Program-made: the position numbers and the translations under genes
Notes under the pieces: generated by a model
The model's input: only the letters and a program-made list of their open reading frames with translations
Told to the model about the DNA's origin: nothing
Database searches by the model: none
NCBI RefSeq assembly: GCF_964355755.1
Contig: NC_092677.1
Location: 16,154,101-16,218,100 of the forward strand
Source: Antedon mediterranea
Lineage: Eukaryota; Echinodermata; Crinoidea; Comatulida; Antedonidae
Direction of reading: 5' to 3'
DNA length: 64,000 bases
In this document: positions 29,623 to 63,950 of the stretch, one piece after another
How positions within the stretch are numbered: the stretch's first letter is position 1
Layout: each line of letters starts with the position of its first letter

Positions 29623-30701
29623 CTATCGCCTCTGTGGAGGTGGTGCACGCATTGGTGGTCGCATTCCCATTGGTGGCATTCCTCTGCCCATAGGTGGTGG
29701 CATCCTACCACCAGGCATCATTCCTGGTCCTCCCATTGGTGGTCTCATGGGTGGTCTTCCAACAAATCCTGGGGGACCTATAAAAATGATAAAATAAAGA
29801 TTAGTTGACATGTCATACAGTAATTGAAAAATGAATACTGCTTTAAAAATCATCGCGTTTATCCGAATAGAAACGTAATAAACAGTTTCTTACCTGGCGC
29901 CCTCTGTGGTGCCATCATGCTTTGAGCTGGTCCGCCAACACCTCTTACTGGTCCTGAAAGACCAGCTGGTGCAGCTGAATGATGTGGATGTGTAGGAACC
30001 CCTCTACCTGCCGCTCTTCCCATTCCTGGTCCTCTACCGCCTCCTGCAACTGGCACACGCGGCCCTTTATCTTTCACTGGCGGCCCTTCAACAGTCATAG
30101 AAACTAAGTGTTCGCCTCGTAGTAATACAAGACCTAGAACCCTCTTCTCTTCCCTGTCAGATGATTTTGCCTTTGCCCGTACTTTCCTGAATTCTTCACA
30201 ATCACCAAGGATGACGTTCATGTGTTTGTCGAATGCGAGGAATGTACCAATGAAGATGCGGCCATCTTGGAGGACAACACGCATCCTGTAATTAATGTGT
30301 TGAATCATCTTGTTACTTTTGCCCTGCACCTAAAAAATACAAAAAAAAGTATGGTTAAAAATAAATAACATCATTTTAACATCTAAAAAATATGCTAACT
30401 AGGCCTACCACCATTGACATTGTAATGGTGGAATATTAAGCTATATGATAAATGTAGGTACAGTAGTACAAATTTACAAACAAGTCGGCTTGCCTAACTT
30501 AGCCTAGGCCTAGTAGGAGGCTTAACCCTGTCCAGAGGCTTAGCACAGCCCGGTTAAGCTGATCAAACCGGCTTGGTAAAAGTGGCCTAGGTAGCCCTCA
30601 GAATCGGATAGAATATTACAGAATAGTTGATAGTTCCATAAAAATAAACCCACTGAAATAGGTTGTAATATATAACAAACAAATTAACACATTATTACCA
30701 T
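29623..30701 (-). CDS. SNRPB: Small nuclear ribonucleoprotein SmB/B'
   Basis: A core Sm-ring protein of U1, U2, U4 and U5 snRNPs, acting in pre-mRNA splicing. Three exons on the minus strand: 30701-30699 (ATG only), 30329-29894 and 29777-29623 (stop TAG at 29625-29623), giving 197 residues. The Sm1 motif region is [19 protein letters not shown] and [20 protein letters not shown]. Sm2 is [20 protein letters not shown]. The rest is a Gly/Arg/Pro/Met-rich tail with GRG motifs (arginine methylation sites in the family) and [11 protein letters not shown]-type repeats. Length is somewhat below the roughly 230-240 residues I recall for human SmB/B', the difference being in the tail. The start is set by ATG directly followed by donor GTAATA, giving [12 protein letters not shown], which parallels human MTVGKSSKMLQH. 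NELFCD is divergent across about 320 bp. Confidence 0.93.
30330..30698 (-). other. SNRPB intron 1
   Basis: A 369-bp intron between the ATG-only exon and the Sm domain exon, with donor GTAATA and acceptor TTTTTTAG. It contains a small perfect hairpin, CCACCATT..AATGGTGG near 30408-30432. I looked for a C/D-box snoRNA and could not support one. Confidence 0.6.
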
Positions 30702-31020: not shown

Positions 31021-31050
31021 ATGGAAGACCAGTTTGAACCTTACGATGCG
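31021..31050 (+). CDS. NELFCD: NELFCD exon 1 (start codon)
   Basis: It encodes [10 protein letters not shown] and ends at donor GTATGT in phase 0. An in-frame TGA 51 nt upstream makes this the first usable ATG. Because the exon is short and poorly conserved, its support is the frame, the donor and the position opposite SNRPB. Confidence 0.72.
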
Positions 31051-34000
31051 GTATGTATTTATTTGTTATATAAACTAGAAATAATAAGTAACATTTCCTA
31101 GGCCGGTGTCGCCTCGGTGACTTGTTTTTTAGAATATCATTCACTGTATGCATCCATATGGATGGACTGTGTGGTGGTGGACGGGCGCTGCTGCCGCTTG
31201 TATTGACCGTGCCTAGGCCTAGGTTACACCAAAGAATATATAGAACAAGAATGAGTAATCCGTGGTTTTCCCTGTAACAGTGATTTATATAATAAGTCAG
31301 GGTATATACAACTTTTTGTGATGGTGACTTGTTTTTTAGAATATTATATAGGCCTATATCAATTATCATTAGGCCTAGCCTAGTAGCAGGCTAATTTGTT
31401 CAACATGCATGGAGTAAATTAGTAAAGTAAAGAATTATTATTCTTTACTCCATGATTTGTCATAATAACGAACTGGCTGCCTCTACGCGCCTAGTCGTAA
31501 ATCCAATCCTGATTCTTTTCTATATTCATCTACTGTGCCTGTGTTTACGTGTTTTCACAAAGGATAGTTTGATACCGGCGTGAAGTTGGTTACTTATTCC
31601 TTATTCGATATTCAATTTTTTTTGTGAAGTTGGATCCTTATTCGACATTCACATTCACATGTATGGGGCGCAATGTGTAATAATATTTTAATTAAATGAT
31701 TTTATACTTACGGCTTAGATTAACTAGGGCTATGATTTATAGGGCTATAACTTCGTTATAAACGGCATGGACCGGGATGACGATACATGGGTTCGGGCTA
31801 GTAGGGTCCAGTAGTTTCAGAAAAATACCACTTGCCCCGGTCCATGCCGTCTAGCTGTCATTTTACGCCATTTTAAAACCTTACTACAATTTAACGTTTT
31901 TAAAAATAAAAAATGCAATATAACCGGATGATTTATAGGGCTATAATTACGTGATAAACGGCATGGACCGGGATGACGATACATGGGTTGGGGCTAGTAG
32001 GGTCCAGTAGTTTCAGAAAAATACCACTTGACCCGGTCCATGCCGTCTAGCTGCCATTTCACGCCATTTTAAAACCTTACTACAATTTAACGTTTTTATA
32101 AAAAAATGCAATATAACCTAATGAAATATAGGGCTATAATTACGTTATAAACGGCATGGACCGGGATGACGATACATGGGTTGGGGCGAGTAGGGTCCAG
32201 TCATTTAAGAAAAATACCTCTTACCCAGGTCCATGCCGTCTAGCTGTCATTATACGCCATTTTAAAACGTTACTACAATTTAAGGTTTTCATAAAAAATG
32301 CAATGTAAACATATGATTTATAGGGCTATAATTACGTTATAAACGGCATGGACCGGGATGACGATACATGGGTTGGGGCAAGTAGGGTCCAGTCAATTCA
32401 GAAAAATACCTCTTACCCCGGTCCATGCCGTCTAGCTATCATTTTACGCCATTTTAAAACGTTACTACAATTTAACGTTTTTTTTAATAAAAAATGCAAT
32501 ATAACCGAATGGTTTATAGGGCTATAATTACGTTATAAACGGCATGGACCGGAATGACGATACATGGGTTGGGGCTAGTAGGGTCCAGTTGTTTCAGAAA
32601 AATACCACTTGACCCGGTCCATGCCGTCTAGCGGCCATTTCACGCCATTTTAAAACGTTACTACAATTTAACTTTTTTTATAAAAAATGCAACATAACCG
32701 GATGATATATAGGGCTATAATTACGTTATAAACGGCATGGACCGGGATGACGATACATGGGTTGGTGCGAGTAGGGTCCAGTCATTATAGAAAAGTACCA
32801 CTTGCCCCGGTCCATGCCGTCTAGCTGTCATTTTACGCCATTTTAAAAGGTTACTACAATTTAAGGTTTTTAAAAATAAAAAATGCACTATAAACGTATG
32901 ATTTATAGGGCTATAATTACGTTATAAACGGCATGGACCGGGATGACGATACATCGGTTGGGGCAAGTAGGGTCCAGTCAATTCAGGAAATACCACTTGC
33001 CCCGGTCCATGCCGTCTAGCTATCATTTTACGCCATTTCAAAACGTTACTACAATTTAACGTTTTTTAAAATAAAAAATGCAATATAACAGGATGATATA
33101 TAGGGCTATAATTACGTTATAAACGGCATGGACCGGGATAACGATACATGGGTTGGGGCGAATAGGGTCCATTCATTTCAGAAAAATACCACTTGCCCCG
33201 GTCCATGCCGTCTAGCTGTCATTTTAAGCCATTTTAAAACGTTACTGTTACTACAATTTAATTTTTTTTAAATAAAAAATGCAATATAACCGGATGATTT
33301 ATAGGGCTATAATTACGTGATAAACGGCATGGACCGGGATGACGATACATGGGTTGGGGCTAGTAGGGTCCTGTCGTTTCAGAAAAATACCACTTGCCTC
33401 GGTCCATGCCGTCTAGCTGTCATTTTACGCCATTTTAAAACGTTACTACAATTTAACGTTTTTTTAAATAAAAAATTCAATATAACAGGATGATATATAG
33501 GGCTATAATTACGTTATAAACGGCATGGACCGGAATGACGATACATGGGTTGGGGCGAGTAGGGTCCAGTCATTTCAGAAAAATACCACTTGCCCCGGTC
33601 CATGCCGTCTAGCTCTCATTTTACGCCATTTTAAAACGTTACCGGTCCTACAATTTAATTTTTAAAAATAAAAAATGCAATATAACCGAATGATTTATAG
33701 GGCTATAAATACGTTATAAACGGCATGGACCGGGATGACGATACATGGGTTGGGGCTAGAAGGGTCCAGTTATTTCAGAAATATACCTCTTACCCCGGTC
33801 CATGCCGTCTAGCTGTCATTATACGCCATTTTAAAACGTTACTACAATTTAAGGTTTTCATAAAAAATGCAATGTAAACATATGATTTATAGGGCTATAA
33901 TTACGTTATAAATGGCATGGACCGGGATGACGATACATGGGTTGGGGCGAGTAGGGTCCAGTCAATTCAGAAAAATACCACTTGCCCCGGTCCATGCCGT

Positions 34001-37000
34001 CTAGCTATCATTTTACGCCATTTTAAAACGTTACTACAATTTAACGTTTTTTTTAAATAAAAAATGCAATATAACCGAATGGTTTATAGGGCTATAATTA
34101 CGTTATAAACGGCATGGACCGGAATGACGATACATGGGTTGGGGCTAGTAGGGTCCAGTTGTTTCAGAAAAATACCACTTGACCCGGTCCATGCCGTCTA
34201 GCGGCCATTTCACGCCATTTTAAAACGTTACTACAATTTAACTTTTTTTATAAAAAATGCAACATAACCGGATGATATATAGGGCTATAATTACGTTATA
34301 AACGGCATGGACCGGGATGACGATACATGGGTTGGTGCGAGTAAGGTCCAGTCATTATAGAAAAGTACCACTTGCCCCGGTCCATGCCGTCTAGCTGTCA
34401 TTCTACGCCATTTTAAAAGGTTACTACAATTTAAGGTTTTTAAAAATAAAAAATGCACTATAAACGTATGATTTATAGGGCTATAATTACGTTATAAACG
34501 GCATGGACCGGGATGACGATACATCGGTTGGGGCAAGTAGGGTCCAGTCAATTCAGGAAATACCACTTGCCCCGGTCCATGCCGTCTAGCTATCATTTTA
34601 CGCCATTTCAAAACGTTACTACAATTTAACGTTTTTTTAAATAAAAAATGCAATATAACAGGATGATATATAGGCCTATAATTACGTTATAAACGGCATG
34701 GACCGGGATAACGATACATGGGTTGGGGCGAATAGGGTCCATTCATTTCAGAAAAATACCACTTGCCCCGGTCCATGCCGTCTAGCTGTCATTTTAAGCC
34801 ATTTTAAAAGGTTACTACAATTTAAGGTTTTTAAAAATAAAAAATGCACTATAAACGTATGATTTATAGGGCTATAATTACGTTATAAACGGCATGGACC
34901 GGGATGACGATACATCGGTTGGGGCAAGTAGGGTCCAGTCAATTCAGGAAATACCACTTGCCCCGGTCCATGCCGTCTAGCTATCATTTTACGCCATTTC
35001 AAAACGTTACTACAATTTAACGTTTTTAAAATAAAAAATGCAATATAAACGCATGATATAATAGGGCTATAATTACGTTATAAACGGCATGGACCGGGAT
35101 GACGATACATGGGTTGGGGCGAGTAGGGTCCAGTCATTTCAGAAAAATACGACTTGCCCCGGTCCATGCCGTCTAGCTGTCATTATACGACATTTTAAAA
35201 CGTTACTACAATTTAAGTTTTTTTAAATAAAAAATGCAATATAACCAAATGATTTATAGGGATATAATTACGTTATAAACGGCATGGACCGGGATGACGA
35301 TACATGGGTTGGGGCGAGTAGGGTCCAGTCATTTTAGAAAAATACCACTTGCCCCGGTCCATGCCGTCTAGCTGTCAATTTACGCCATTTTAAAACGTTA
35401 CTACAATTTAAGGTTTTCATAAAAAATGCAATGTAAACGTATGATTTATAGGGCTATAATTACGTTATAAACGGCATGGACCGGGATGAAGATACATGGG
35501 TTGGGGCAAGTAGTGTCCAGTCAATTCAGAAAAATACCACTTGCCCCGGTCCATGCCGTCTAGCTGTCATTTTACGCCATTTTAAAACGTTACTACAATT
35601 TAACGTTTTTAAAATAAAAAATGCAATATAAACGCATGATATAATAGGGCTATAATTACGTTATAAACGGCATGGACCGGGATGACGATACATGGGTTGG
35701 GGCCAGTATGGTCCAGTTGTTTCAGAAAAATACCACTTGCTCCGGTCCATGCCGTCTAGCTGTCATTTTACGCCATTTTAAAACGTTACTAAAATTTACG
35801 TTTTTTTAAATAAAAAGTGCAATATAACCGAATGATTTTTAAGGCTATAATTACGTTATAAACGGCATGGACCGGGATGACGATACATGGGTTGGGGCAA
35901 GTATGGTCCATTCGTTTCAGAAAAATACCACTTGCCCTGGTCCATGCCGTCTAGCTGCCATTTTACGCCATTTTAAAACGTTACTACAATTTAAGGTTTT
36001 CATAAAAAATGCAATGTAAACGTATGATTTATAGGGCTATAATTACGTTATAAACGGCATGGACCGGGATTACGATACATGGGTTGGGGCGAGTAGCGTC
36101 CAGTCATTTCAGAGAAATACCACTTGCCCCGGTCCATGCCGTCTAGCTGTCATTTTACGCCATTTTAAAACGTTACTACAATTTAAGGTTTTCATAAAAA
36201 ATGCAATGTAAACGTATGATTTATAGGGCTATATTTACGTTATAAACGGCATGGACCGGGATGAAGATACATGGGTTGGGGCAAGTAGGGTCCAGTCAAT
36301 TCAGAAAAATACCACTTGCCCCGGTCCATCCCGTCTAGCTATCATTTTACGCCATTTTAAAACGTTACTAAAATTTACGTTTTTTAAAATAAAAAATGCA
36401 ATATAACCGAATGATTTATAGGGCTATAATTACGTTATAAACGGCATGGACCGGGATGACGATACATGGGTTGGGGCCAGTATGGTCCAGTTGTTTCAGA
36501 AAAATACCACTTGCTCCGGTCCATGCCGTCTAGCTGTCATTTTACGCCATTATAAAACGTTACTACAATTTAACGTTTATAAAATAAAAAATGCAATATA
36601 AACGCATGATATAATAGGGCTATAATTACGTTATAAACGGCATGGACCGGGATGACGATACATGGGTTGGGGCGAGTAGGGTCCAGTCATTTCAGAAAAA
36701 TACGACTTGCCCCAGACCATGCCGTCTAGCTGTCATTTTACGACATTTTAAAACGTTACTACAATTTAAGTTTTTTAAAATAAAAAATGCAATATAACCG
36801 AATGATTTATAGGGATATAATTACGTTATAAATGGCATGGACCGGGATTACGATACATGGGTTGGGGCGAGTAGCGTCTAGTCATTTCAGAGAAATACCA
36901 CTTGCCCCGGTCCATGGCGTCTAGCTGTTATTTTACGCCATTTTAAAACGTTACGACAATTTAAGGTTTTCATAAAAAATGCAATGTAAACGTATGATTT

Positions 37001-40000
37001 ATAGGGCTATAATTACGTTATAAACGGCATGGACCGGGATGAAGATACATGGGTTGGGGCAAGTAGGGTCCAGTCAATTCAGAAAAATACCACTTGCCCC
37101 GGTCCATGCCGTCTAGCTATCATTTTACGCCATTTTAAAACGTTACTAAAATTTACGTTTTTTAAAATAAAAAATGCAATATAACCGAATGATTTATAAG
37201 GCTATAATTACGTTATAAACGGCATGGACCGGGATGACGATACATGGGTTGGGGCAAGTATGGTCCATTCGTTTCAGAAAAATACCAGTTGCTCCGGTCC
37301 ATGCCGTCTAGCTGTCATTTTACGCCATTATAAAACGTTACTACAATTTAACGTTTTTAAAATAAAAAATGCAATATAAACGCATGATATAATAGGGCTA
37401 TAATTACGTTATAAACGGCATGGACCGGGATGACGATACATGGGTTGGGGCGAGTAGGGTCCAGTCATTTCAGAAAAATACGACTTGCCCCGGTCCATAC
37501 CGTCTAGCTGTCATTTTACGACATTTTAAAACGTTACTACAATTTAAGTTTTTTTAAATATAAAATGCAATATAACCGAATGATTTATAGGGATATAATT
37601 ACGTTATAAACGGCATGGACCGGGATGACGATACATGGGTTGGGGCTAGTAGGGTCCAGTCGTTTTAGAAAAATACCACTTGTCCGGTCCATGCCGTCTA
37701 GCTGCCATTTTACGCCATTTTAAATCGTTACTACAATTTAACGTTTTTATAAAAAATGCAATATAACCGGATGGTATATAGGGCTATAATTACGTTATAA
37801 ACGGCATGGACCGGGATGACAATACATGAGTTAGAGCGAGTAGGGTCCAGTCATTTCAGAAAATTACCTCTAGCCCCGGTCCATGCCGTCTAGCTGTCAT
37901 TTTACGCCATTTTAAAACGTTACTACAATTTAAGATTTTTTTTAAAATAAAAAATGCAATATAACCGAATTATTTATAGGGCTATAATTACGTTATAAAC
38001 GGCATGGACCGGGATGACGATACATGGGTTGGGGCTAGTAAGGTCCAGTCGTTTCAGTAAAATACCACTTGACCCGGTCCATGCCGTCTAGCGGCCATTT
38101 CACGCTATTTTAAAACGTTACTACAATTTAACTTTTTTATAAAAAATACAATATAACCGGATGATATAATTATAGGGCTATAATTACGTTATAAACGGCA
38201 TGGACCGGGATGACGATACATGGGTTGGTGCGAGTAGGGTCCAGTCATTATAGAAAAGTACCACTTGCCGTCTAGTTGTCATTTTACGCCATTTTAAAAC
38301 GTTACTACAATTTAACGTTTTTAAAAATAAAAAATGCACTATAAACGTATGGTTTATAGGGCTATAATTACGTTATAAACGCCATGGACCGGGATTACGA
38401 TACATTGATTGGGGCAAGTAGGGTCCAGTCATTTCACCCACGTATCGTCATCCCGGTCCATGCCGTTTATAACGTAATTATAGCCCTATAAATCATGCGT
38501 TTATATTGCTTTTTTTTTTTTAAAGTTCAATTGTAGTAACGTTTTAAAATGGCGTAAAATGGCAGCTAGACGGTATGGACAGGGGCAAGTGGTCTTTTTC
38601 TATAATGACTGGACCCTACTCGCCCCAACCCATGTCGTCATCCCGGTCCATGCCGTTTATAACGTAATTATAGCCCTATATATCATCCGTTTATATTGCA
38701 TTTTTTATAAAAACGTTAAATTGTAGTAACGTTTTAAAATGTCGTAAAATCGCAGCTAGACGGCATGGACCGGGGCAAGTGGTATTTTTCTGAAACGACT
38801 GGACCCTACTAGCCCCAACCCATTTGTCGTCATCCCGGTCCATGCCGTTTATAACGTAATAATAGCCCTATAAATCATGTGTTTATATTCCATTTTTTAT
38901 TTTAAAAAACGTTAAATTGTAGTAACGTTTTAAAATGGCGTAATATGAAAGCTAGACGGCATGGACCGGGGCAAGTGGTATTTTTCGAAATGACTGGACC
39001 CTACTCGCCCCAACCCATATATCGTCATCCCTGTCCATGCAGTTTATAACGTAATTATAGCCCTGTAAATCATATGTTTATATTGCATTTTTTAATTTAA
39101 AAATCGTTAAATTGTAGTAACGTTTTAAAATGGCGTAAAATGACAGCTAGACGGCATGGACCGGGGCAAGTGGTATTTTTCTGAAACGACTGGACCCTGC
39201 TAGCCCCAACCCATGTATCGTCATCCCGGTCCATACCGTTTATAACGTAATTATAGCCCTATATATCATCCGGTTATATTGCATTTTTTATAAAAAAAAA
39301 ATTAAATTGTAGTAACATTTAAAATGGCGTAAAATGACAGCTAGACGGCATGGACCGGGGTAAGAGGTATTTTTTTTAAATGACTGGACCCTACTCGTCC
39401 CAACCCATGTATCGTCATCCCGGTCCATGCCGTTTATAACGTAATTATAGCCCTATATATCATCCGGTTATATTGCATTTTTTATAAAAACGTTAAATTG
39501 TAGTAAGGTTTTAAAATGGCGTGAAATGGCAAGTAGACAGCATGGACCGGGTAAAGTGGTATTTTTCTGAAACTACTGGACCCTACTAGCCCCAACCCAT
39601 GTATCGTCATCCCGGTCCATGCCGTTTATAACTTAATTATAGCCTTATAAATCATTCGGTTATATTGCATTTTTTATTTAAAAAAATTAAATTGTAGTAC
39701 CGGTAACGTTTTAAAATGGCGTAAAATGACAGCTAGACGGCATGGACCGGGAAAAGTGGTATTGTTATGCAATGACTGGACCCGACTCGACCCAACCCAT
39801 GTATCGTCATCCCGGTCCATGCCGTTTATAACGTAATTATAGCCCTATATATCATTCGGTTATATTGCATTTTTTATAAAAAAAAACGTTAAATTTTAGT
39901 AACGTTTTATAATGGCGTTAAATGATAGCTAGACGGCATGGACCGGGGCAAGTGGTATTTTTCTGAAATGACTAGACCCTACTCGCCCCAACCCATGTAT

Positions 40001-43000
40001 CGTCATCCCGGTCCATGCCGTTTATAACGTAATTATAGGCCTATATGTACGTCATCCGCTTATATTCTATTTTTCATTTTAAAAAAACTTAAATTGTAGT
40101 AACGTTTTAAAATGGCGTAAAATGGCAGCTACACGGCATGGACCGGGGCAAGTGGTATTTTTCTGAAACGACAGGAACCTACTAGCCCCAACCCATGTAT
40201 CGTCATCCCGGTCCATGCCGTTTATAACGTAATTATAGCCCTAAATATCTTCCGGTTAAATTGCATTTTTTATAAAAAAAAAACTTAAATTGTAATAACA
40301 TTTTAAAATGGCGTAAAATGGCAGCTAGACGGTATGGACCGGGGCAAGTGGTACTTTTCTATAATGACTGGATCCTACTCGCACCAACCCATATTCGTCA
40401 TCCCGGTCCATGCCGTTTATAACGTAATTATAGCCCTATATATCATCCGGTTATATTGCATTTTTTATAAAAAAGTTAAATTGTAGTAACGTTTTAAAAT
40501 GGCGTGAAATGGCCGCTAGACGGCATGGACCGGGTCAAGTGGTATTTTTCTGAAACGACTGGACCCTACTAGATCCAACCCATGTATCGTCATCTCGGTC
40601 CATGCCGTTTATAACGTAATTATAGACCTATACATCATTCGGTTATATTGCATTTTTTATAAAAAAAAAAACGTTAAATTGTAGTAACGTTTTAAAATGG
40701 CGTAAAATGATAGCTAGACGGCATGGACCGGGGCAAGTGGTATTATTCTGAATTGACTGGACCCTACTTGCCCCAACCCATGTATCGTCATCCCGGTCCA
40801 TGCCGTTTATAACGTAATTATAGACCCTTAAATCATTCGGTTATATTGCATTTTTTATATAAAAAAAACCGTTAAATTGTAGTAACGTTTTAAAATGGCG
40901 TAAAATGATAGCTAGACGGCATGGACCGGGGCAAGTGGTATTTTTCTGAATTGACTGGACCCTACTTGCCCCAACCCATGTATCGTCATCCCGGTCCATG
41001 CCGTTTATAACGTAATTATAGCCCTATAAATCATATGTTTACATTACATTTTTTATGAAAACCTTAAATTGTAGTAACGTTTTAAAATGGCGTAAAATGA
41101 CAGCTAGACGGCATGGACCGGGGTAAGAGGTATTTTTCTTAAATGACTGGACCCTACTCGCCCCAACCCATGTATCGTCATCCCGGTCCATGCCGTTTAT
41201 AACGTAATTATAGCCCTATATTTCATCAGGTTATATTGCATTTTTTATAAAAACGTTTAAATTGTAGTAAGGTTTTAAAATGGCGTGAAATGGCAGCTAG
41301 ACGGCATGGACCGGGTCAAGTGGTATTTTTCTGAAACTACTGGACCCTACTAGCCTCAACCCATGTATCGTCATCCCGGTCTATGCCGTTTATAACGTAA
41401 TTATAGCCCTATAAATCATTCGGTTATATTGCATTTTGTATTTAAAAAAAAATTAAATTGTAGTACCGGTAATGTTTTGAAATGGCGTAAAATGGCAGCT
41501 AGACGGCATGGACCGGGGCAAGTGGTATTTTTCTGAAACGACAGGACCCTACTAGCCCCAACCCATGTATCGTCATCCCGGTCCATGCCGTTTATAACGT
41601 AATTATAGCCCTATAAATCATACGGTTATATTGCATTTTTTATAAAAAAAAAACTTAAATTGTGGTAACGTTTTAAAATGGCGTAAAATGGAAGCTAGAC
41701 GGCATGGACAGGGACAAGTGGTATATTTCTAAAACGACTGGACCCTACTAGCCCCAATCCATGTATCTTTATCCCGGTCCATGCCGTTTATAACGTAATT
41801 ATAGCCCTATAAATCATTCGGTTATATTGCATTTTTTATAAAAAAAAGACGTTAAATTGTATTAATGTTTTAAAATGGCGTAAAATGATAGCTAGACGGC
41901 ATGGACCGGGGCAAGTGGTATTTTTCTGAATTGACTGGACCCTACTTGCCCCAACCCCGTGTATCGTCTTCCCGGTCCATGCCGTTTATAACGTAATTAT
42001 AGCCCTATAAATCATACGTTTACATTGCATTTTTTATGAAAAGCTTAAATTGTAGTCACGTTTTAAAATGGCGTAAAATGACAGCTAGACGGCATGGACC
42101 GGGGTAAGATGTATTTTTCTTAAATGACTGGACCCTACTCGCCCCAACCCATGTATCGTCATCCCGGTCCATGCCGTTTATAACGTAATTATAGCCCTAT
42201 TATATCATGCGTTTATATTGCATTTTTTATTTTTAAAACGTTAAATTGTAGTAACGTTTTAAAATGGAGTAAAATGACAGCTAAACGGCATGGACCGGGG
42301 CAAGTGGTATTTTTCCGAAATGACTAGACCCTACTCATCCCAACCCATGCATCGTCATCCCGGTCCATGCCGTTTATAACGTAATTATAGCCCTATAAAT
42401 CATACGTTTATAGTGCATTTTTTATTTTTAAAAACCTTAAATTGTAGTAACCTTTTAAAATGGCGTAAAATGACAGCTAGACGGCATGGACCGGGGCAAG
42501 TGGTACTTTTCTATAATGACTGGACCCTACTCGCACCAACCCATGTATCGTCATCCCGGTCCATGCCGTTTATAACGTAATTATAGCCCTATATATCATC
42601 CGGTTATGTTGCATTTTTTATAAAAAAAGTTAAATTGTAGTAACGTTTTAAAATGGCGTGAAATGGCCGCTAGACGGCATGGACCGGGTCAAGTGGTATT
42701 TTTCTGAAAAAACTGGACCCTACTAGCCCCAAACCATGTATCGTCATTCCGGTCCATGCCGTTTATAACGTAATTATAGCCCTATAAATCATATGTTTAC
42801 ATTGCATTTTTTATGAAAACCTTAAATTGTAGTAACGTTTTAAAATGGCGTATAATGACAGCTAGACGGCATGGACCGGGTCAAGTGGTATTTTTCTGAA
42901 ACTACTGGACCCTACTAGCCCCAACCCATGTATCGTCATCCCGGTCCATGCCGTTTATAACGTAATTATAGCCCTATAAATCATTCGGTTATATTGCATT

Positions 43001-46000
43001 TTGTATTTAAAAAAATTAAATTGTAGTAACAGTAACGTTTTAAAATGGCTTAAAATGACAGCTAGACGGCATGGACCGGGGCAAGTGGTATTTTTCTGAA
43101 ATGAATGGACCCTATTCGCCCCAACCCATGTATCGTTATCCCGGTCCATGCCGTTTATAACGTAATTATAGCCCTATATATCATCCTGTTATATTGCATT
43201 TTTTATTTAAAAAAACGTTAAATTGTAGTAACGTTTTGAAATGGCGTAAAATGATAGCTAGATGGCATGGACCGGGGCAAGTGGTATTTCCTGAATTGAC
43301 TGGACCCTACTTGCCCCAACCGATGTATCGTCATCCGGGTCCATGCCGTTTATAACGTAATTATAGCCCTATAAACCATTCGGTTATATTGCATTTTTTA
43401 TTTAAAAAAACGTTAAATTGTAGTAACGTTTTAAAATGGCGTAAAATGATAGCTAGACGGCATGGACCGGGGCAAGTGGTATTTTTCTGAATTGACTGGA
43501 CCCTACTTGCCCCAACCCATGTATCATCATCCTGGTCCATGCCGTTTATAACGTAATTATAGCCCTATAAATCATATGTTTACATTGCATTTTTTATGAA
43601 AACCTTAAATTGTAGTAACGTTTTAAAATGGCGTATAATGACAGCTAGACGGCATGGACCGGGGTAAGAGGTATTTTTCTTAAATGACTGGACCCTACTC
43701 GCCCCAACCCATGTATCGTCATCCCGGTCCATGCCGTTTATAACGTAATTATAGCCCTATATTTCATTAGGTTATATTGCTTTTTTTTATAAAAACGTTA
43801 GATTGTAGTAAGGTTTTAAAATGGCGTGAAATGGCAGCTAGACGGCATGGACCGGGTCAAGTGGTATTTTTCTGAAACTACTAGACCCTACTAGCCCCAA
43901 CCCATGTATCGTCATCCCGGTCCATGCCGTTTATAACGTAATTATAGCCCTATAAATCATTCGGTTATATTGCATTTTGTATTTAAAAAAATTAAATTGT
44001 AGTAACAGTAACGTTTTAAAATGGCTTAAAATGACAGCTAGACGGCATGGACCGGGGCAAGTGGTATTTTTCTGAAATGAATGGACCCTACTCGCCCCAA
44101 CCCATGTATCGTTATCCCGGTCCATGCCGTTTATAACGTAATTATAGCCCTATATATCATCCTGTTATATTGCATTTTTTATTTAAAAAAACGTTAAATT
44201 GTAGTACCGTTTTGAAATGGCGTAAAATGATAGCTAGACGGCATGGACCGGGGCAAGTGATATTTTTCTGAATTGACTGGACCCTACTTGCCTCAACCGA
44301 TGTATCGTCATCCCGGTCCATGCCGTTTATAACGTAATTATAGCCCTATAAATCATTCGGTTATATTGCATTTTTTATATAAACAAAACGTTAAATTGTA
44401 GTAACGTTTTAAAATGGCGTAAAATGATAGCTAGACGGCATGGACCGGGGCAAGTGGTATTTTTCTGAATTGACTGGACCCTACTTGCCCCAACCCATGT
44501 ATCGTCATCCCGGTCCATGCCGTTTATAACGTAATTATAGCCCTATACATCAAACGTTTACATTGCATTTTTTATGAAAACCTTAAATTGTAGTAACGTT
44601 TTAAAATGGCGTAAAATGACAGCTAGACGGCATGGACCGGGGTAAGAGGTATTTTTCTGAAATGACTGGACACTACTCGCCCCAACCCATGTATCGTCAT
44701 CCCGGTCCATGCCGTTTATAACGTAATTATAGCCCTATAAATCATACGTTTACATTGCATTTTTTATGAAAACCTTAAATTGTAGTAACGTTTTAAAATG
44801 GCGTAAAATGACAGCTAGACGGCATGGACCGGGGTAAGAGGTATTTTTCTGAAATAACTGGACCCTACTCGCCCCAACCCATGTATCGTCATCCCGGTCT
44901 ATGCCGTTTATAACGTAATTATAGCCCTATATTTTATCCATTTATATTGCAATTTTTATAAAAACGTGAAATTGTAGTAAGGTTTTAAAATGGCGTGAAA
45001 TGGCAGCTAGACGGCATGGACCGGGGTAAGAGGTATTTTTCTGAAATAACTGGACCCTACTAGCCCCAACCCATGTATCGTCATCCCGGTCCATGCCGTT
45101 TATAACGTATTTATAGCCCTATAAATCATTCGGTTATATTGCATTTTTTATTTTTAAAAATTAAATTGTAGGACCGGTAACGTTTTAAAATGGCGTAAAA
45201 TGACAGCTAGACGGCATGGACCGGGGCAAGTGGTATTTTTCTGAAATGACTGGACCCTACTCGCCCCAACCCATGTATCGCCATTCCGGTCCATGCCGTT
45301 TATAACGTAATTATAGCCCTATATATCATTCGGTTATATTGCATTTTTTATTTAAAAAAACGTTAAATTGTAGTAACGTTTTAAAATGGCGTAAAATGAC
45401 AGCTAGAAGGCATGGACCGAGGCAAGTGGTATTTTTCTGAAACGACAGGACCCTACTAGCCCCAACCCATGTATCGTCATGCCGGTCCATGCCGTTTATC
45501 ACGTAAATATAGCCCTATAAATCATCCGGTTATATTGCATTTTTTATTTAAAAAAAATTAAATTGTAGTAACAGTAACGTTTTAAAATGGCTTAAAATGA
45601 CAGCTAGACGGCATGGACCGGGGCAAGTGGTATTTTTCTGAAATGAATGGACCCTATTCGCCCCAACCCATGTATCGTTATCCCGGTCCATGCCGTTTAT
45701 AACGTAATTATAGGCCTATATATCATCCTGTTATATTGCATTTTTTATTTAAAAAAACGTTAAATTGTAGTAACGTTTGGAAATGGCGTAAAATTATAGC
45801 TAGACGGCATGGACCGGGGCAAGTGGTATTTCCTGAATTGACTGGACCCTACTTGCCCCAACCGATGTATCGTCATCCCGGTCCATGCCGTTTATAACGT
45901 AATTATAGCCCTATAAATCATACGTTTATAGTGCATTTTTTATTTTTAAAAACCTTAAATTGTAGTAACCTTTTAAAATGGCGTAGAATGACAGCTAGAC

Positions 46001-49000
46001 GGCATGGACCGGGGCAAGTGGTACTTTTCTATAATGACTGGACCCTACTCGCACCAACCCATGTATCGTCATCCCGGTCCATGCCGTTTATAACGTAATT
46101 ATAGCCCTATATATCATCCGGTTATGTTGCATTTTTTGTAAAAAAAGTTAAATTGTAGTAACGTTTTAAAATGGCGTGAAATGGCCGCTAGACGGCATGG
46201 ACCGGGTCAAGTGGTATTTTTCTGAAACAACTGGACCCTACTAGCCCCAACCCATGTATCGTCATTCCGGTCCATGCCGTTTATAACGTAATTATAGCCC
46301 TATAAACCATTCGGTTATATTGCATTTTTTATTTAAAAAAAACGTTAAATTGTAGTAACGTTTTAAAATGGCGTAAAATGATAGCTAGACGGCATGGACC
46401 GGGGCAAGTGGTATTTTTCTGAATTGACTGGACCCTACTTGCCCCAACCCATGTATCGTCATCCCGGTCCATGCCATTTATAACGTAATTATAGCCCTAT
46501 AAATCATATGTTTACATTGCATTTTTTATGAAAACCTTAAATTGTAGTAACGTTTTAAAATGGCGTATAATGACAGCTAGACGGCATGGACCGGGGTAAG
46601 AGGTATATTTCTGAAATAACTGGACCCTACTAGCCCCAACCCATGTATCGTCATCCCGGTCCATGCCGTTTATAACGTATTTATAGCCCTATAAATCATT
46701 CGGTTATATTGCATTTTTTATTTTTAAAAATTAAATTGTAGGACCGGTAACGTTTTAAAATGGCGTAAAATGACAGCTAGACGGCATGGACCGGGGCAAG
46801 TGGTATTTTTCTGAAATGACTGGACCCTACTCGCCCCAACCCATGTATCGTCATTCCGGTCCATGCCGTTTATAACGTAATTATAGCCCTATATATCATC
46901 CTGTTATATTGAATTTTTTTTTTTTTAAAACGTTAAATTGTAGTAACGTTTTAAAATGGCGTAAAATGACAGCTACACGGCATGGACCGAGGCAAGTGGT
47001 ATTTTTCTGAAACGACAGGACCCTACTAGCCCCAACCCATGTATCGTCATCCCGGTCCATGCCGTTTATCACGTAATTATAGCCCTATAAATCATCCGGT
47101 TATATTGCATTTTTTATTTAAAAAAAATTAAATTGTAGTAACAGTAACGTTTTAAAATGGCTTAAAATGACAGCTAGACGGCATGGACCGGGGCAAGTGG
47201 TATTTTTCTGAAATGAATGGACCCTATTCGCCCCAACCCATGTATCGTTATCCCGGTCCATGCCGTTTATAACGTAATTATAGCCCTATATATCATCCTG
47301 TTATATTGCATTTTTTATTTAAAAAAACGTTAAATTGTAGTAACGTTTTGAAATGGCGTAAAATGATAGCTAGACGGCATGGACCGGGGCAAGTGGTATT
47401 TCCTGAATTGACTGGACCCTACTTGCCCCAACCGATGTATCGTCATCCCGGTCCATGCCGTTTATAACGTAATTATAGCCCTATAAATCATACGTTTATA
47501 GTGCATTTTTTATTTTTAAAAACCTTAAATTGTAGTAACCTTTTAAAATGGCGTAGAATGACAGCTAGACGGCATGGACCGGGGCAAGTGGTACTTTTCT
47601 ATAATGACTGGACCCTACTCGCACCAACCCATGTATCGTCATCCCGGTCCATGCCGTTTATAACGTAATTATAGCCCTATATATCATCCGGTTATGTTGC
47701 ATTTTTTGTAAAAAAAGTTAAATTGTAGTAACGTTTTAAAATGGCGTGAAATGGCCGCTAGACGGCATGGACCGGGTCAAGTGGTATTTTTCTGAAACAA
47801 CTGGACCCTACTAGCCCCAACCCATGTATCGTCATTCCGGTCCATGCCGTTTATAACGTAATTATAGCCCTATAAACCATTCGGTTATATTGCATTTTTT
47901 ATTTAAAAAAAACGTTAAATTGTAGTAACGTTTTAAAATGGCGTAAAATGATAGCTAGACGGCATGGACCGGGGCAAGTGGTATTTTTCTGAATTGACTG
48001 GACCCTACTTGCCCCAACCCATGTATCGTCATCCCGGTCCATGCCATTTATAACGTAATTATAGCCCTATAAATCATATGTTTACATTGCATTTTTTATG
48101 AAAACCTTAAATTGTAGTAACGTTTTAAAATGGCGTATAATGACAGCTAGACGGCATGGACCGGGGTAAGAGGTATATTTCTGAAATAACTGGACCCTAC
48201 TAGCCCCAACCCATGTATCGTCATCCCGGTCCATGCCGTTTATAACGTATTTATAGCCCTATAAATCATTCGGTTATATTGCATTTTTTATTTTTAAAAA
48301 TTAAATTGTAGGACCGGTAACGTTTTAAAATGGCGTAAAATGACAGCTAGACGGCATGGACCGGGGCAAGTGGTATTTTTCTGAAATGACTGGACCCTAC
48401 TCGCCCCAACCCATGTATCGTCATTCCGGTCCATGCCGTTTATAACGTAATTATAGCCCTATATATCATCCTGTTATATTGAATTTTTTTTTTAAAAAAA
48501 CGTTAAATTGTAGTAACGTTTTAAAATGGCGTAAAATGACAGCTAGACGGCATGGACCAAGGCAAGTGGTATTTTTCTGAAACGACAGGACCCTACTAGC
48601 CCCAACCCATGTATCGTCATCCCGGTCCATGCCGTTTATCACGTAATTATAGCCCTATAAATCATCCGGTTATATTGCATTTTTTATTTAAAAAAAATTA
48701 AATTGTAGTAACAGTAACGTTTTAAAATGGCTTAAAATGACAGCTAGACGGCATGGACCGGGGCAAGTGGTATTTTTCTGAAATGAATGGACCCTATTCG
48801 CCCCAACCCATGTATCGTTATCCTGGTCCATGCCGTTTATAACGTAATTATAGCCCTATATATCATCCTGTTATATTCCATTTTTTATTTAAAAAAACGT
48901 TAAATTGTAGTAACGTTTTGAAATGGCGTAAAATGATAGCTAGACGGCATGGACCGGGGCAAGTGGTATTTCCTGAATTGACTGGACCCTACTTGCCCCA

Positions 49001-52000
49001 ACCGATGTATCGTCATCCCGGTCCATGCCGTTTATAACGTAATTATAGCCCTATAAATCATACGTTTATAGTGCATTTTTTATTTTTAAAAACCTTAAAT
49101 TGTAGTAACCTTTTAAAATGGCGTAAAATGACAGCTAGACGGCATGGACCGGGGCAAGTGGTACTTTTCTATAATGACTGGACCCCACTCGCACCAACCC
49201 ATGTATCGTCATCCCGGTCCATGCCGTTTATAACGTAATTATAGCCCTATATATCATCCGGTTATGTTGCATTTTTTATAAAAAAAGTTAAATTGTAGTA
49301 ACGTTTTAAAATGGCGTGAAATGGCCGCTAGACGGCATGGACCGGGTCAAGTGGTATTTTTCTGAAACAACTGGACCCTACTAGCCCCAACCCATGTATC
49401 GTCATTCCGGTCCATGCCGTTTATAACGTAATTATAGCCCTATAAACCATTCGGTTATATTGCATTTTTTATTAAAAAAAACGTTAAATTGTAGTAACGT
49501 TTTAAAATGGCGTAAAATGATAGCTAGACGGCATGGACCGGGGCAAGTGGTATTTTTCTGAATTGACTGGACCCTACTTGCCCCAACCCATGTATCGTCA
49601 TCCCGGTCCATGCCGTTTATAACGTAATTATAGCCCTATAAATCATATGTTTACATTGCATTTTTTATGAAAACCTTAAATTGTAGTAACGTTTTAAAAT
49701 GGCGTATAATGACAGCTAGACGGCATGGACCGGGGTAAGAGGTATTTTTCTTAAATGACTGGACCCTACTCGCCCCAACCCATGTATCGTCATCCCGGTC
49801 CATGCCGTTTATAACGTAATTATAGCCCTATATTTCATTAGGTTATATTGCATTTTTTTATAAAAACGTTAAATTGTAGTAAGGTTTTAAAATGGCGTGA
49901 AATGGCAGCTAGACGGCATGGACCGGGTCAAGTGGTATTTTTCTGAAACTACTGGACCCTACTAGCCCCAACCCATGTATCGTCATCCCGGTCCATGCCG
50001 TTTATAACGTAATTATAGCCCTATAAATCATTCGGTTATATTGCATTTTGTATTTAAAAAAATTAAATTGTAGTAACAGTAACGTTTTAAAATGGCTTAA
50101 AATGACAGCTAGACGGCATGGACCGGGGCAAGTGGTATTTTTCTGAAATGAATGGACCCTACTCGCCCCAACCCATGTATCGTTATCCCGGTCCATGCCG
50201 TTTATAACGTAATTATAGCCCTATCATCCTGTTATATTGCATTTTTTATTTAAAAAAACGTTAAATTGTAGTAACGTTTTGAAATGGCGTAAAATGATAG
50301 CTAGACGGCATGGACCGGGGCAAGTGGTATTTTTCTGAATTGACTGAACCCTACTTGCCCCAACCGATGTATCGTCATCCCGTTCCATGCCGTTTATAAC
50401 GTAATTATAGCCCTATAAATCATTCGGTTATATTGCATTTTTTATATAAAAAAAACGTTAAATTGTAGTAACGTTTTAAAATGGCGTAAAATGATAGCTA
50501 GACGGCATGGACCGGGGCAAGTGGTATTTTTCTGAATTGACTGGACCCTACTTGCCCCAACCCATGTATCGTCATCCCGGTCCATGCCGTTTATAACGTA
50601 ATTATAGCCCTATACATCATACGTTTACATTGCATTTTTTATGAAAACCTTAAATTGTAGTAACGTTTTAAAATGGCGTAAAATGACAGCTAGACGGCAT
50701 GGACCGGGGTAAGAGGTTTTTTCTGAAATGACTGGACCCTACTCGCCCCAACCCATGTATCGTCATCCCGGTCCATGCCGTTTATAACGTAATTATAGCC
50801 CTATAAATTATACGTTTACATTGCATTTTTTATGAAAACCTTAAATTGTAGTAACGTTTTAAAATGGCGTATAATGACAGCTAGACGGCATGGACCGGGG
50901 TAAGAGGTATTTTTCTGAAATAACTGGACCCTACTCGCCCCAACCCATGTATCGTCATCCCGGTCCATGCCGTTTATAACGTAATTATAGCCCTATATTT
51001 CATCCGGTTATATTGCAATTTTTATAAAAACGTGAAATTGTAGTAAGGTTTTAAAATGGCGTGAAATGGCAGCTAGACGGCATGGACCGGGGTAAGAGGT
51101 ATTTTTCTGAAATAACTGGACCCTACTAGCCCCAACCCATGTATCGTCAACCCGGTCCATGCCGTTTATAACGTATTTATAGCCCTATAAATCATTCGGT
51201 TATATTGCATTTTTTATTTTTAAAAATTAATTTGTAGGACCGGTAACGTTTTAAAATGGCGTCAAATGACAGCTAGACGGCATGGACCGGGGCAAGTGGT
51301 ATTTTTCTGAAATGACTGGACCCTACTCGCCCCAACCCATGTATCGTCATTCCGATCCATGCCGTTTATAACGTAATTATAGCCCTATATATCATTCTGT
51401 TATATTGAATTTTTTATTTAAAAAAACGTTAAATTGTAGTAACGTTTTAAAATGGCATAAAATGACAGCTAGACGGCATGGACCGAGGCAAGTGGTATTT
51501 TTCTGAAACGTCAGGACCCTACTAGCCCCAACCCATGTATCGTCATCCCGGTCCATGCCGTTTATCACGTAATTATAGCCCTATAAATCATCCGGTTATA
51601 TTGCATTTTTTATTTTTAAAAACGTTAAATTGTAGTAAGGTTTTAAAATGGCGTAAAATGACAGCTAGACGGCATGGACCGGGGCAAGTGGTATTTTTCT
51701 GAAACGACTGGACCCTACTAGCCCGAACCCATGTATCGTCATCCCGGTCCATGCCGTTTATAACGAAGTTATAGCCCTATAAATCATAGCCCTAGTTAAT
51801 CTAAGCCGTAAGTATAAAATCATTTAATTAAAATATTACACATATTGCGCCCCATACATGTGAATGTGAATGTCGAATAAGGATCCAACTTCACAAAAAA
51901 AATTGAATATCGAATAAGGAATAAGTAACCAACTTCACGCCGGTTAGTTTGATAATATTTCTATATTTAAAGACACCTTCCCTACAATTTGTGACGTTTT

Positions 52001-55000
52001 GTAAAAATAATACTGTACATATATATTACTTTAAAAACATTAAACCAGGTCATTCCTTGTCTTAAATGTACGTTTTATGGTAAATTATGATAAAAAGTGA
52101 GAAACAATGCACTACCTAAGTAGCTCGCGGCGATTGAACTCTCGTGGACGGTCTTTAGGCCTAGCCTAGCTAGGCTTAGTTTTGTAGGCCTATTTGGTAC
52201 ACATCGTTAACGTACGAACATCGTACGCTAGCTATATACCTAGCCTGACGTCGTAACTATAGTTGCTGCATTAATTGTCTTTCTATTTTTGCCAGATTCC
52301 GTTGATACAAATTGGGAAAAACCCGGCATTTTCGCTGAAAAGTTAGGAGTCTTCCATTTGTTTTGGCCTCACGATCGATCGAAAAGTGGGTGAATTACAG
52401 AAGAAAAATATCAATCCGCACGCAATGCATTTTGGGATTTATAGCGGGCCGCTATAATTATTAAAATCGACTTATTTTTCACATTTTTAATCATTTAAAG
52501 ATGAAAAAAGTTATCGCAATAGAACCATATAGTATTATTTTTACATTAACTATAGTTTGTGACATGAGCAATGAATGTTGGAATGGCGCTATATAAATCG
52601 AACGATTGATTGATTGATTAAAGTAGATCTAAAAAGCGTAGGGAAGGTGTCTTTAACTTCTTTCTGGTAAAACAAGTAAATGTTAATGAAATTTAATATT
52701 GTATCCTATTAATAACATGTATTTTATACTAATTTTTATCATAAAAACAATACTTAATTTACCGGGTGTAGATTAGTTTGCAACAATGGCAAAGAATAGG
52801 CCGTGCTGAGTAACGGTTGGTTGATTTTTAGTGTTGCTGTTCGGCCTTTTTTGTGAACTAATTTAGCATAGTGGTAAATAATTTTCTGTAGAAGTGAATG
52901 TACATTAGTTTGTTATTAACTATGTTTTATAAAATGTTTTACAATTGCAAAATATATTATCATAATTCTATTTAATGTGACATGTATAATATCTATTAAT
53001 ATCAAGTCTTATTTAGTCTGTATACATCCGCCCATTATGAGGGCGGGCATCACTCTCTGTTACAAATTTGTCATGCAAAAATCGTGGAATACTCATTCTT
53101 GTGATATATATTCTTTGCTTACACCCACCATACAGTTAACGATTTGTATTAGGTACATTAATGCTTTATTATATAAATAAATATATGCATGATGACCTTT
53201 AGCCTAGGCCTACTACTAGCATATATGATCTATCTCATTAATTGTATTCATGCATGAATTAATAACCAAATAGCAAACAAATCAATTATTTATTTAATAA
53301 TACACTTTACACAGGAGGATGCATACAAGCCATATGGAGATGGACAGTACGGTGATGATCCATATGGAGACGGTGCGTATGGCGATGGTGCAAACTATGA
53401 CGATGATCCATATGATGGTCACAATCCTTACGACAATGGTGACACAGGAACAGACAAAGGGATGTACGGATTTGAGGATGAAAGGGAGGAGGAAGAGGCA
53501 GAAGAGGAGTTATTCAAACAAAAAGTTGAGAAAGATGACGAGACTATTCGCAGTGACTGTCTATCTGTTTTTGCAGCCACTGATTACATAATGGAACCTG
53601 GTGTATTTGAAAATCTTCGAAGGTATGCAGAGCTGTAGATTGGTGGTTAAATTCCAATTCTAGGGTTCAAAGGATCCTGACCAGTAATATAAATTAATTA
53701 ACTCTTTCTACTCCACTTATTAAGCCTCTTAATACGATTTATTAACGCATGACATACTGCAAACCCCTAAATATTCGCAATTTTACTAAATCCAATTATT
53801 TTGTGAACTTTTATTTTATGATTTAATTTTATTGTCCCTAAACAAGGAAGTAAAGTCGATCTGATACCACAAGAATGGAAGTCCTACACAAAACGAAACC
53901 TAACTAATTAACTTGTAACTAACTATTAATTTGTAAACAAGAATTTACTCTTATATTTTATATAATAATTGTGGTAATGCGCTGTATTTTTGTAGAGCAA
54001 TACATAAATTCATAAATATTTTTTTCTAGATATTTCCAAGCTGGTGGCACACCTGAACAAGTTGTTATCCTCCTATCTGAGCATTACACAGCTGTGGCAC
54101 AGACAGTCAACCTGTTTGCCGAGTGGCTTATATCAACAGGTGTCAATCCCACTGAGGTACAGCAGATGGTTGAAGATCACCTCAAGAGCCTCATAATAAA
54201 ACATTTCGACCCAAAGAAAGCTGATAAGATTTTCAGTGATGAAGGAGGTGTAAGTTAAAATGAAGAATCTTTCAAAAGTATATTATACCCCTTTCACACC
54301 AAAAGCAAAACTCCGGAGACACCCCGGAGTTGACGCCCCGCTGTTTGGTGTGAAAGGTAAAATCAAGCAACTCCGGAGTTTAAAACTGCGAGGTTGAACA
54401 GCTGAACGTTCTCCGGAGAGCGAACTGCGGGGACACCCCGGTGTTTTGGTGTGAAAGGTACCAACATCAAACTCCGGAGTGTTTCGGGTCAAAAGGTCAT
54501 CCTCACACGATCACTCATTGCTTTAGTTTTATTTAAAAATACTTTAAATATTTGTACAAAATATATAGCGGGTTTAAAAAATAATAAGTAGTATCAATAA
54601 AATATTATATTACTTCTGAGACTTTTGAAAGTAATTATTAAATTAAAAATATTGTTAATTAAAATTATTCTAATGATCGTTGCGATGTAAACAAACAAAA
54701 TAGAGGGCGACATTTACAATTTTATTTTATAAACCCCGGTGTTGCTAGGTTGGTGTGGAAGGGGTATCTCCGGAGTTTCTCGACGTTTTGAATGGTCATA
54801 AACCCTGGGGTGTCTCCGGAGACACTCCGGAGTTTTGGTGTGAAAGGGGTATTAGAAAGATCAAGCAATGAACTTTAGTGATTGTGTCAACTACGTTTCT
54901 TTACTACAGTTAATGTATAATTATGGTTTGTTTCATTGAATTATTTTACATGGACCTTTAGATACTGATGCCAGAGATGTTTTTGTAAAGCTTGGTTCCC

Positions 55001-60546: not shown

Positions 60547-61575
60547 CTAAGGTTAGTCCAACTATCATTTATTCAGCTGAGATGGTTGATCAAACTATGT
60601 TAACTTATGTTAACTGCCATTAATCCAGCTGAGGTGGTTGATCTTACTGCCATTAATCCAGCTGAGGTGGTCGATCTAACTGCCAGTATGATCGGTCTAG
60701 CTAAAATTAATCCAACTGAGGTGATCGGTCTAGCTACCATTAATCCACAGTGGTGGCCGAACTATCAATAATCTAGTTAAGGTTGTTGATCCAACTATCA
60801 TTAATCCAGCTGAGGTTGTTGATCCAACTATCATTAATCCAGCTTAGATGGCTGATCCAACTATCATTAATCCATTTGAGGTGGTTGATCCGACTATCAG
60901 TAATCCAGTTGAGGTGATTGATCCAACTATCATTAATCCAGCTCAGGTGGCTGATCCAACTATCATTAATCCAGTTGAGGTGATTGATTCAACTATCATT
61001 AATCCAGCTTAGGTTGTTGATCCACCTACATTAATCCAGCTTAGGTGGCTGATCCAACTATCATTAATCCAGCTGAGGTTGTTGATCCAACTATCATTAA
61101 TCTAGCTTAGATGGCTGATCCAACTATCATTAATCCATTTGAGGTGGTTGATCCGACTATCAGTAATCCAGTTGAGGTGATTGATCCAACTATCATTAAT
61201 CCAGCTCAGGTGGCTGATCCAACTATCATTAATCCAGTTGAGGTGGTTGATTCAACTATCATTAATCCAGCTTAGGTTGTTGATCCAGCTACATTAATCC
61301 AGCTTAGGTGGCTGATCCAACTATCATTAATCCAGTTGAGGTGATTGATTCAACTATCATTAATGTAGCTTAGGTTGTTGATCCAACTACATTAATCCAT
61401 CTTAGGTGGCTGATCCAACTATTATTAATCAAGCTTAGGTTGATCTATCCCAACCAACTGTCATTATACTTGCTGACTTGGTTGATCTCCCATTTTAGGT
61501 TGATCCACATATTGTTAATCTACCTAAGGTTGGTCCAACTATCATTAACTATTGTAACCAAGATGAGGTTAATCC
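60547..61575 (+). repeat. 33-bp minisatellite downstream of the NELFCD stop
   Basis: About 30 copies of GATCCAACTATCATTAATCC plus AGCTGAGGTGGTT (33 bp), with some 30-bp variants. A higher-order period of about 263 bp (eight units) is visible: TTAGATGGCTGATCC at 60844 recurs at 61107, followed by the same order of variants. It probably lies in the 3' UTR, because the first strong AATAAA follows it. Confidence 0.88.
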
Positions 61576-63524: not shown

Positions 63525-63950
63525 TCAGCCGTCAGTCAGTCTCTCCAAAACCGAATCTTTTGTCGACAGAGGGGCCGCCGAGGTCAGAGCCGTCCAGTTT
63601 GCTGTGATCCTATCGGGGCCGGTAGTCTGGGTCACTCGTCCTGCCACGACCCTCCTGATCAAATCCTGAACAAAGATACAAATGACATCGATCGTCTCAG
63701 CATTCTCGATTACTCTTCTTGCTCTTAATAAACGATAATTAAATAGCGCATGTTCCGTGCTTATCCTAGTACCTGGGTACAGATGTAGTGTTGTTGTGGT
63801 TACATCATAATCGATAGCGTAGGGTCTCCTAAATTCCACATTCTGAAATGCTGCAGTAAAATGTAAACCTGTGTTGTCACTTGAAATTATATTTGACATG
63901 TAAATTCCTGGAGGATAATTGTTGAAAATAATATCTTCAATATCTTCCAA
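63525..63950 (-). pseudogene. PIF/Harbinger transposase (DDE nuclease) remnant
   Basis: A 141-residue minus-strand frame contains YPGTRISTEHALFNYRLLRA, then RRVIENA (plus-strand about 63778-63693). This is close to the signature YPG..FNYRLSRARRVVENAFGI of Harbinger/HARBI1 nucleases. The sequence before and after (ENAETIDVIC..) does not continue the family pattern, so only a C-terminal fragment survives. The element is broken and not expected to be active. Confidence 0.6.

Follow-up and report, generated by a model that had tools for sequence, protein, structure and literature searches.

A 20-kb satellite-filled element, probably a foldback-type DNA transposon, in the first NELFCD intron of the crinoid Antedon mediterranea

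Results

Gene context of the element

The window, by which we mean the whole stretch of 64,000 nucleotides of Antedon mediterranea contig NC_092677.1 that was analysed, contains the NELFCD gene and, within its first intron, a 20-kb element. Coding exon 1 of NELFCD (31021–31050, + strand; splice donor GTATGT) lies to the left of the element, and exon 2 (53315–53622, + strand; acceptor ACAG), which continues the protein with EDAYKPYG, lies to the right. Intron 1 thus extends from 31051 to 53314 (22,264 bp), and the element occupies 91.5 % of it, a setting that the first-pass annotation had not noted; an earlier placement of the element between two genes was dropped after exon 1 had been recognized on its left side. 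The N-terminus of NELF-D from another crinoid, Anneissia japonica, is MDDQFEPYNTDESTYKPYG, beginning MDDQFEPY, and the N-termini of the starfish, urchin and acorn-worm proteins look different from exon 1, so that the backing for this exon is confined to the crinoid. The NELF-D protein (613 aa) was assembled by eye from the exons in the window. Among the best 120 of 621 significant hits, its best match was the A. japonica protein (88 % identity over 85 % of the query), followed by that of a starfish (73 % over 89 %), and in a pairwise alignment the two crinoid proteins were 89 % identical.

A Pfam search with nine ORFs of the window assigned three to TH1 (NELF-D), one to LSM (SmB) and two to fn3, and gave no match for the remaining three. 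The ORF with the LSM domain (29859–30329, − strand) contains a coding exon of SmB, the divergent neighbour of NELFCD, whose likely start codon, as read from the sequence, is at 30701 on the − strand. Since the two start codons (30701 and 31021) are 320 bp apart on opposite strands, SmB and NELFCD probably have a common divergent promoter. The window also contains a 33-bp minisatellite of about 22 copies (60611–61440), just downstream of the last recognized piece of NELFCD exon, and tandem arrays at 4009–4582 (three copies of a 187-bp unit) and 18895–19422 (about 25 copies of a 22-bp unit). A 141-aa ORF at 63525–63950 (− strand), reminiscent of PIF/Harbinger transposases, gave no Pfam match at 0.001.

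Boundaries and termini

The element extends from 31574 to 51944 (20,371 bp) and is bounded by near-identical unique inverted termini, outside which 9 bp are duplicated exactly. The left terminal unique domain (31574–31736, + strand; 163 bp) starts with ACCGGCGTGAAG, and the right one (51783–51944, − strand; 162 bp) is inverted, the reverse complement of the same word closing the element at 51944; both ends read 5'-AC. Positions 31574–31733 and the reverse complement of 51786–51944 are 98.1 % identical over 160 aligned columns, and the differences all fall in one cluster, near position 102–107 of the terminus. Comparison of the flanks gave the target site duplication (TSD) TAGTTTGAT at 31565–31573 and at 51945–51953, to which no strand is assigned, with nine of nine bases matching. 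A first-pass annotation had proposed a single element with unique inverted ends and a perfect 9-bp flanking duplication, and on both points it was right. When pairs of 9-mers were drawn at random from the flanks, 38 of 1,999,131 were identical; the word itself is AT-rich and occurs four times on the + strand and three times on the − strand of the whole window. The ORF list of the window contains no ORF of at least 100 aa inside the element, so the element is non-autonomous at best, and no middle domain was seen between its arms.

The satellite arrays

Satellite accounts for 20,046 of the 20,371 bp (98.4 %). The interior consists of one satellite of about 195 bp, present as 34 full monomers in forward orientation followed by 68 in reverse, with a single flip at 38436/38437. 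Tandem Repeats Finder (TRF) returned arrays of 196-bp period at 31732–38436 and 38436–51787, and segmentation into monomers gave the counts for each arm; the first-pass annotation had described the single reversal at the same position. The left arm (31737–38436, + strand) contains monomers L1–L34 and an 83-bp partial monomer; the right arm (38437–51782, − strand) contains R1–R68 and a 55-bp partial monomer, and the two partial monomers abut at the inversion point. Monomers are numbered inward from the outer end of each arm. With their terminal domains the arms are unequal in length, 6.9 kb on the left and 13.5 kb on the right. The earlier estimates of about 103 monomers and a 194-bp unit were close; we count 102 full monomers besides the two partial ones, a count that depends on the assembly, and find a majority consensus of 196 bp with monomer lengths of 184–202 bp. 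Mean pairwise identity among all 102 full monomers is 0.894.

Positions 26–40 and 99–114 of the consensus are occupied by ACGGCATGGACCGGG and its reverse complement; this 15-bp inverted repeat may form a hairpin. DNA folding of one of the 102 full monomers gave a hairpin in agreement with this inverted repeat (z −2.27; five of 200 shuffles were as good). Outside the element but within the window, blastn with the satellite gave seven rows, none convincing; the best (33 bp at 85 %, E 0.003) falls in an AT-rich stretch of the consensus. Rfam gave no matches in the window, and one 30-base word of the satellite had no exact match in IMG/VR viral contigs.

Outside the element the G+C content is 33 %. 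The observed/expected ratio of CpG is 1.31 in the element versus 0.55 in the rest of the window, and the monomers do not clearly bear the mark of decay through methylation: C-to-T changes are no commoner at CpG (1.7 %) than elsewhere (2.1 %), G-to-A changes are slightly commoner there (3.8 % versus 3.1 %), and conservation of the consensus base is slightly lower at CpG (0.91 and 0.88; 0.94–0.95 elsewhere).

Relatedness of the two arms

The outer parts of the arms are close inverted copies of each other. The outer left block (31574–34810, + strand) comprises the terminus, L1–L15 and about 142 bp of L16, and its partner on the right (47150–51944, − strand) carries inside it eight extra monomers, R2–R9 (50027–51586, − strand), that the left arm lacks. 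L1 pairs with R1, and L2–L15 pair in order with R10–R23, all 15 pairs at 99 % identity or above; with the insertion R2–R9 set aside, L1–L15 align with the joined R1 and R10–R23 over 2,931 bp with 16 mismatches and no gaps. The mismatches are evenly scattered over the shared block, which ends sharply about 142 bp into L16, near 34810, the inverted copy covering only about 3.2 kb at the outer end of that arm. The longest ordered run of pairs at 98 % or above is 14 monomers; 300 shuffles of the right arm gave at most 4 (mean 1.9), and the reversed order gave 1.

Repeats of higher order are present within the arms as well. The right arm has an 8-monomer unit, seen as R11–R24 against R19–R32 (99.2 %), and R2–R12 is a near-copy of R33–R43 (mean 98.3 %); the inner left arm has a 4-monomer unit (L23–L26 against L27–L30, 97.6 %).

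Towards the centre the likeness between the arms is lost. None of the 19 monomers L16–L34 has a right-arm partner above 96.9 %, and 18 of the 20 monomers R49–R68 have no left-arm partner above 95.8 %, the exceptions being R55 (98.4 %) and R56 (97.5 %). Best identity to the opposite arm drops from end to centre (Spearman −0.81 for the left arm and −0.58 for the right). There are exceptions to this gradient: deep in the right arm R55 and R56 are high, whereas R4 and R35, in its outer two thirds, reach a best left-arm identity of only about 92 %. A single global palindrome was rejected, since the inner arms in mirror register (18 monomer pairs) have an identity of 0.883 versus a background of 0.885, with mirror offsets from −6 to +6 giving 0.880–0.897; inner monomers thus differ by about 11 % between the arms. 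By the order and identity of their monomers, the outer arms descend from a recent common source and the inner arms do not, the similarity of the latter being at the level of the repeat family. The earlier proposal that the entire palindrome moved or arose as a single unit goes beyond these data: the TSD records only the insertion of something with these ends, and the inner arms form no palindrome by descent. Satellite arrays are usually homogeneous inside and decayed at their edges; the gradient in this element runs the opposite way. That repeats are homogenized near the termini while those of the centre are older makes a foldback-read artefact less likely and suggests copying from arm to arm, out to the terminus.

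Discussion

Known relatives

Foldback elements such as Drosophila FB and sea-urchin TU carry tandem repeats in their inverted termini and are usually smaller than the element described here; TU provides a precedent in echinoderms. Two features expected of FB-like elements, long inverted termini in which a unique flanking domain is joined to tandem repeats, and a TSD of 8–10 bp, are found at this locus, the second with nine of nine bases. By description, the element matches Tetris and Tm1 most closely in plan. In the available text on Tetris of Drosophila virilis and D. americana, the inverted termini likewise combine a unique flanking domain with tandem repeats of about 220 bp, TSDs are 8–10 bp and coding capacity is lacking; Tetris repeats expand into satellite arrays, and fibre-FISH revealed a long repeat array between two terminal domains (PMC4079207). 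The sequenced Tetris termini differ in reaching only 1,735 bp, with few repeats, and in enclosing a middle domain, and in the available text the 66-copy Tetris arrays do not figure as sequenced, bounded elements (PMC4079207); here, 102 full monomers lie in one bounded element without a middle domain, in another phylum. Tm1, a Mutator/foldback family of root-knot nematodes, also has composite inverted termini, in which the number of tandem repeats varies, and mostly 9-bp TSDs (8–10 bp in 45 of 53 elements), its non-autonomous copies being moved by a MULE transposase; as reported in the available text, its repeats are only 13–15 bp, the elements are far shorter and an autonomous copy is known (PMC3169594). 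A further comparison is offered by the 172TR interspersed tandem repeats of the D. virilis group, satellite arrays that insert as a unit, in one case into an intron, but that measure 1.5 kb in the intronic case and about 0.5–10 kb overall, and for which the available text mentions no terminal inverted repeat (TIR) or inversion (PMC10783647). Our literature search, covering parts of the published texts, found no bounded, satellite-made foldback element of this size, which does not prove that none exists. We take the element for a known kind of mobile DNA, of the FB, Tetris and Tm1 type, in unusually large form.

Origin of the element

We consider it likely that the element is a non-autonomous, foldback-type, cut-and-paste DNA transposon in NELFCD intron 1, the arms of which grew by unequal exchange and one outer arm of which was recently copied from the other. 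The foldback reading, already put forward in the first-pass annotation, is preferred because a unique end and a tandem-repeat domain are present in both inverted termini and the TSD is exact; the idea of a palindrome that moved as a unit is the part of that proposal that goes further than the data. Against our reading, no second copy, empty site or transposase was seen in the window, the gradient of identity between the arms has exceptions, and the 20-kb array may hold assembly errors.

Our working model is that the element inserted into the crinoid NELFCD intron with a 9-bp staggered cut. Each terminus would consist of a unique end of about 162 bp, the putative site of a transposase supplied in trans, followed by the tandem ~195-bp satellite, and with the middle domain gone the two arms would have come to meet head to head. 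Unequal exchange would have lengthened the arms, by units of eight monomers in the outer parts and of four in the inner left arm. The outer ~3.2 kb of one arm, terminus included, would have been copied recently from the other as the inverted arms recombined, either by gene conversion or when a break at one terminus of the element was repaired from the opposite arm. One such tract, from inside L16 to the terminus, would account both for the sharp inner edge and for near-identity to the very end. The anatomy, the TSD, the order and relatedness of the repeats and the gene context are read directly from the sequence; the class of transposase, the direction of the copying and what set it off, and the timing of array growth relative to insertion are matters of inference.

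The TSD dates only the insertion of something with these ends, so that growth of the array may have preceded or followed it. It is accordingly conceivable, though we think it less likely than not, that a small foldback element consisting of the termini and a few monomers inserted first and that the satellite expanded to 20 kb at this site, without the large structure ever having moved. The blocks of local expansion in the right arm (R11–R24 against R19–R32, and R2–R12 against R33–R43) are consistent with such growth, as is the finding that two alleles of one Tetris insertion differ by one repeat (PMC4079207, available text). The divergence of the inner arms, set beside the near-identity of the ends and of the TSD, suggests instead that much of the array may predate the insertion; this argument from age is weakened in that conversion can keep ends identical and nine bases date little.

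TSDs of P and hAT elements are 7–8 bp long and do not fit the 9 bp found here. Mutator-like elements have TSDs of 8–11 bp, a range that includes 9 bp and a length common to other classes; taken with the published precedents of Tetris and Tm1, it makes Mutator-like mobilization plausible, and a Mutator-type transposase is what we favour, if with modest confidence and, as the element holds no transposase, with no claim to superfamily membership. That the same structure was moved by another transposase, of Rehavkus, Merlin or, as in Galileo, P type, seems to us rather doubtful. Rehavkus elements have 9-bp TSDs and a minisatellite near the 3' end and are thus possible candidates, but in the available text they are reported from arthropods and annelids only, their TIRs are 26–400 bp, the minisatellite occurs only before the 3' TIR and the elements are coding (PMC6446971). 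Merlin elements have 8–9-bp TSDs, can hold tandem repeats and have been found in two echinoderm species, but they are disfavoured by their conserved terminal 5'-GG (PMC8101967, available text), the ends here being 5'-AC. Galileo of D. mojavensis, a member of the P superfamily, has foldback-like TIRs with a tandem repeat of about 210 bp, the number of which also differs between its two TIRs; the available account gives no more than three repeats, TIRs of up to about 1.26 kb and a different transposase superfamily (PMC3573991).

The identity of the outer arms might also have arisen in a single event, in which one end and about 15 monomers were copied in reverse onto the far side of an older array, with no conversion. 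Such an inverted duplication would give a half-element its second terminus, and it would account just as well as a copied tract for the abrupt end of the shared block within a monomer and the near-identity out to the terminus; the even scatter of mismatches also accords with it. Between monomers 1 and 2, eight monomers would later have had to be gained by the right arm or lost from the left, and the duplication leaves the TSD unexplained unless the new unit then transposed; on balance we regard it as less likely than not. An artefact of assembly or of foldback long reads is highly improbable, for although inverted long reads are a known artefact (PMC12870357, available text), it would mirror the sequence at the flip, where the inner arms have no mirror signal, and the arms are unlike in length and in the order of their repeats while the two flanks carry consecutive exons of one gene.

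Implications

On the preferred reading, a foldback-type transposon with copied outer arms, the step from transposon to satellite DNA would be caught here at one locus, in an element that is bounded, target-duplicated and 98 % satellite and in which the order of amplification is readable. The locus also places a 20-kb inverted repeat inside an intron of a gene that encodes one subunit of NELF, the transcription-pausing factor. Because the element sits in this intron, the transcript could contain a multi-kilobase double-stranded hairpin, to judge from the outer arms, which are 99.5 % complementary over 2.9 kb. It is interesting to speculate that breaks at transposon termini, made by the transposase or at a hairpin, are repaired off the opposite arm, giving an end-driven satellite factory with young repeats outside and an old centre, an idea we offer as a long shot. 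Should further copies show the end-to-centre gradient as well, growth of the satellite would be tied to repair at transposon ends.
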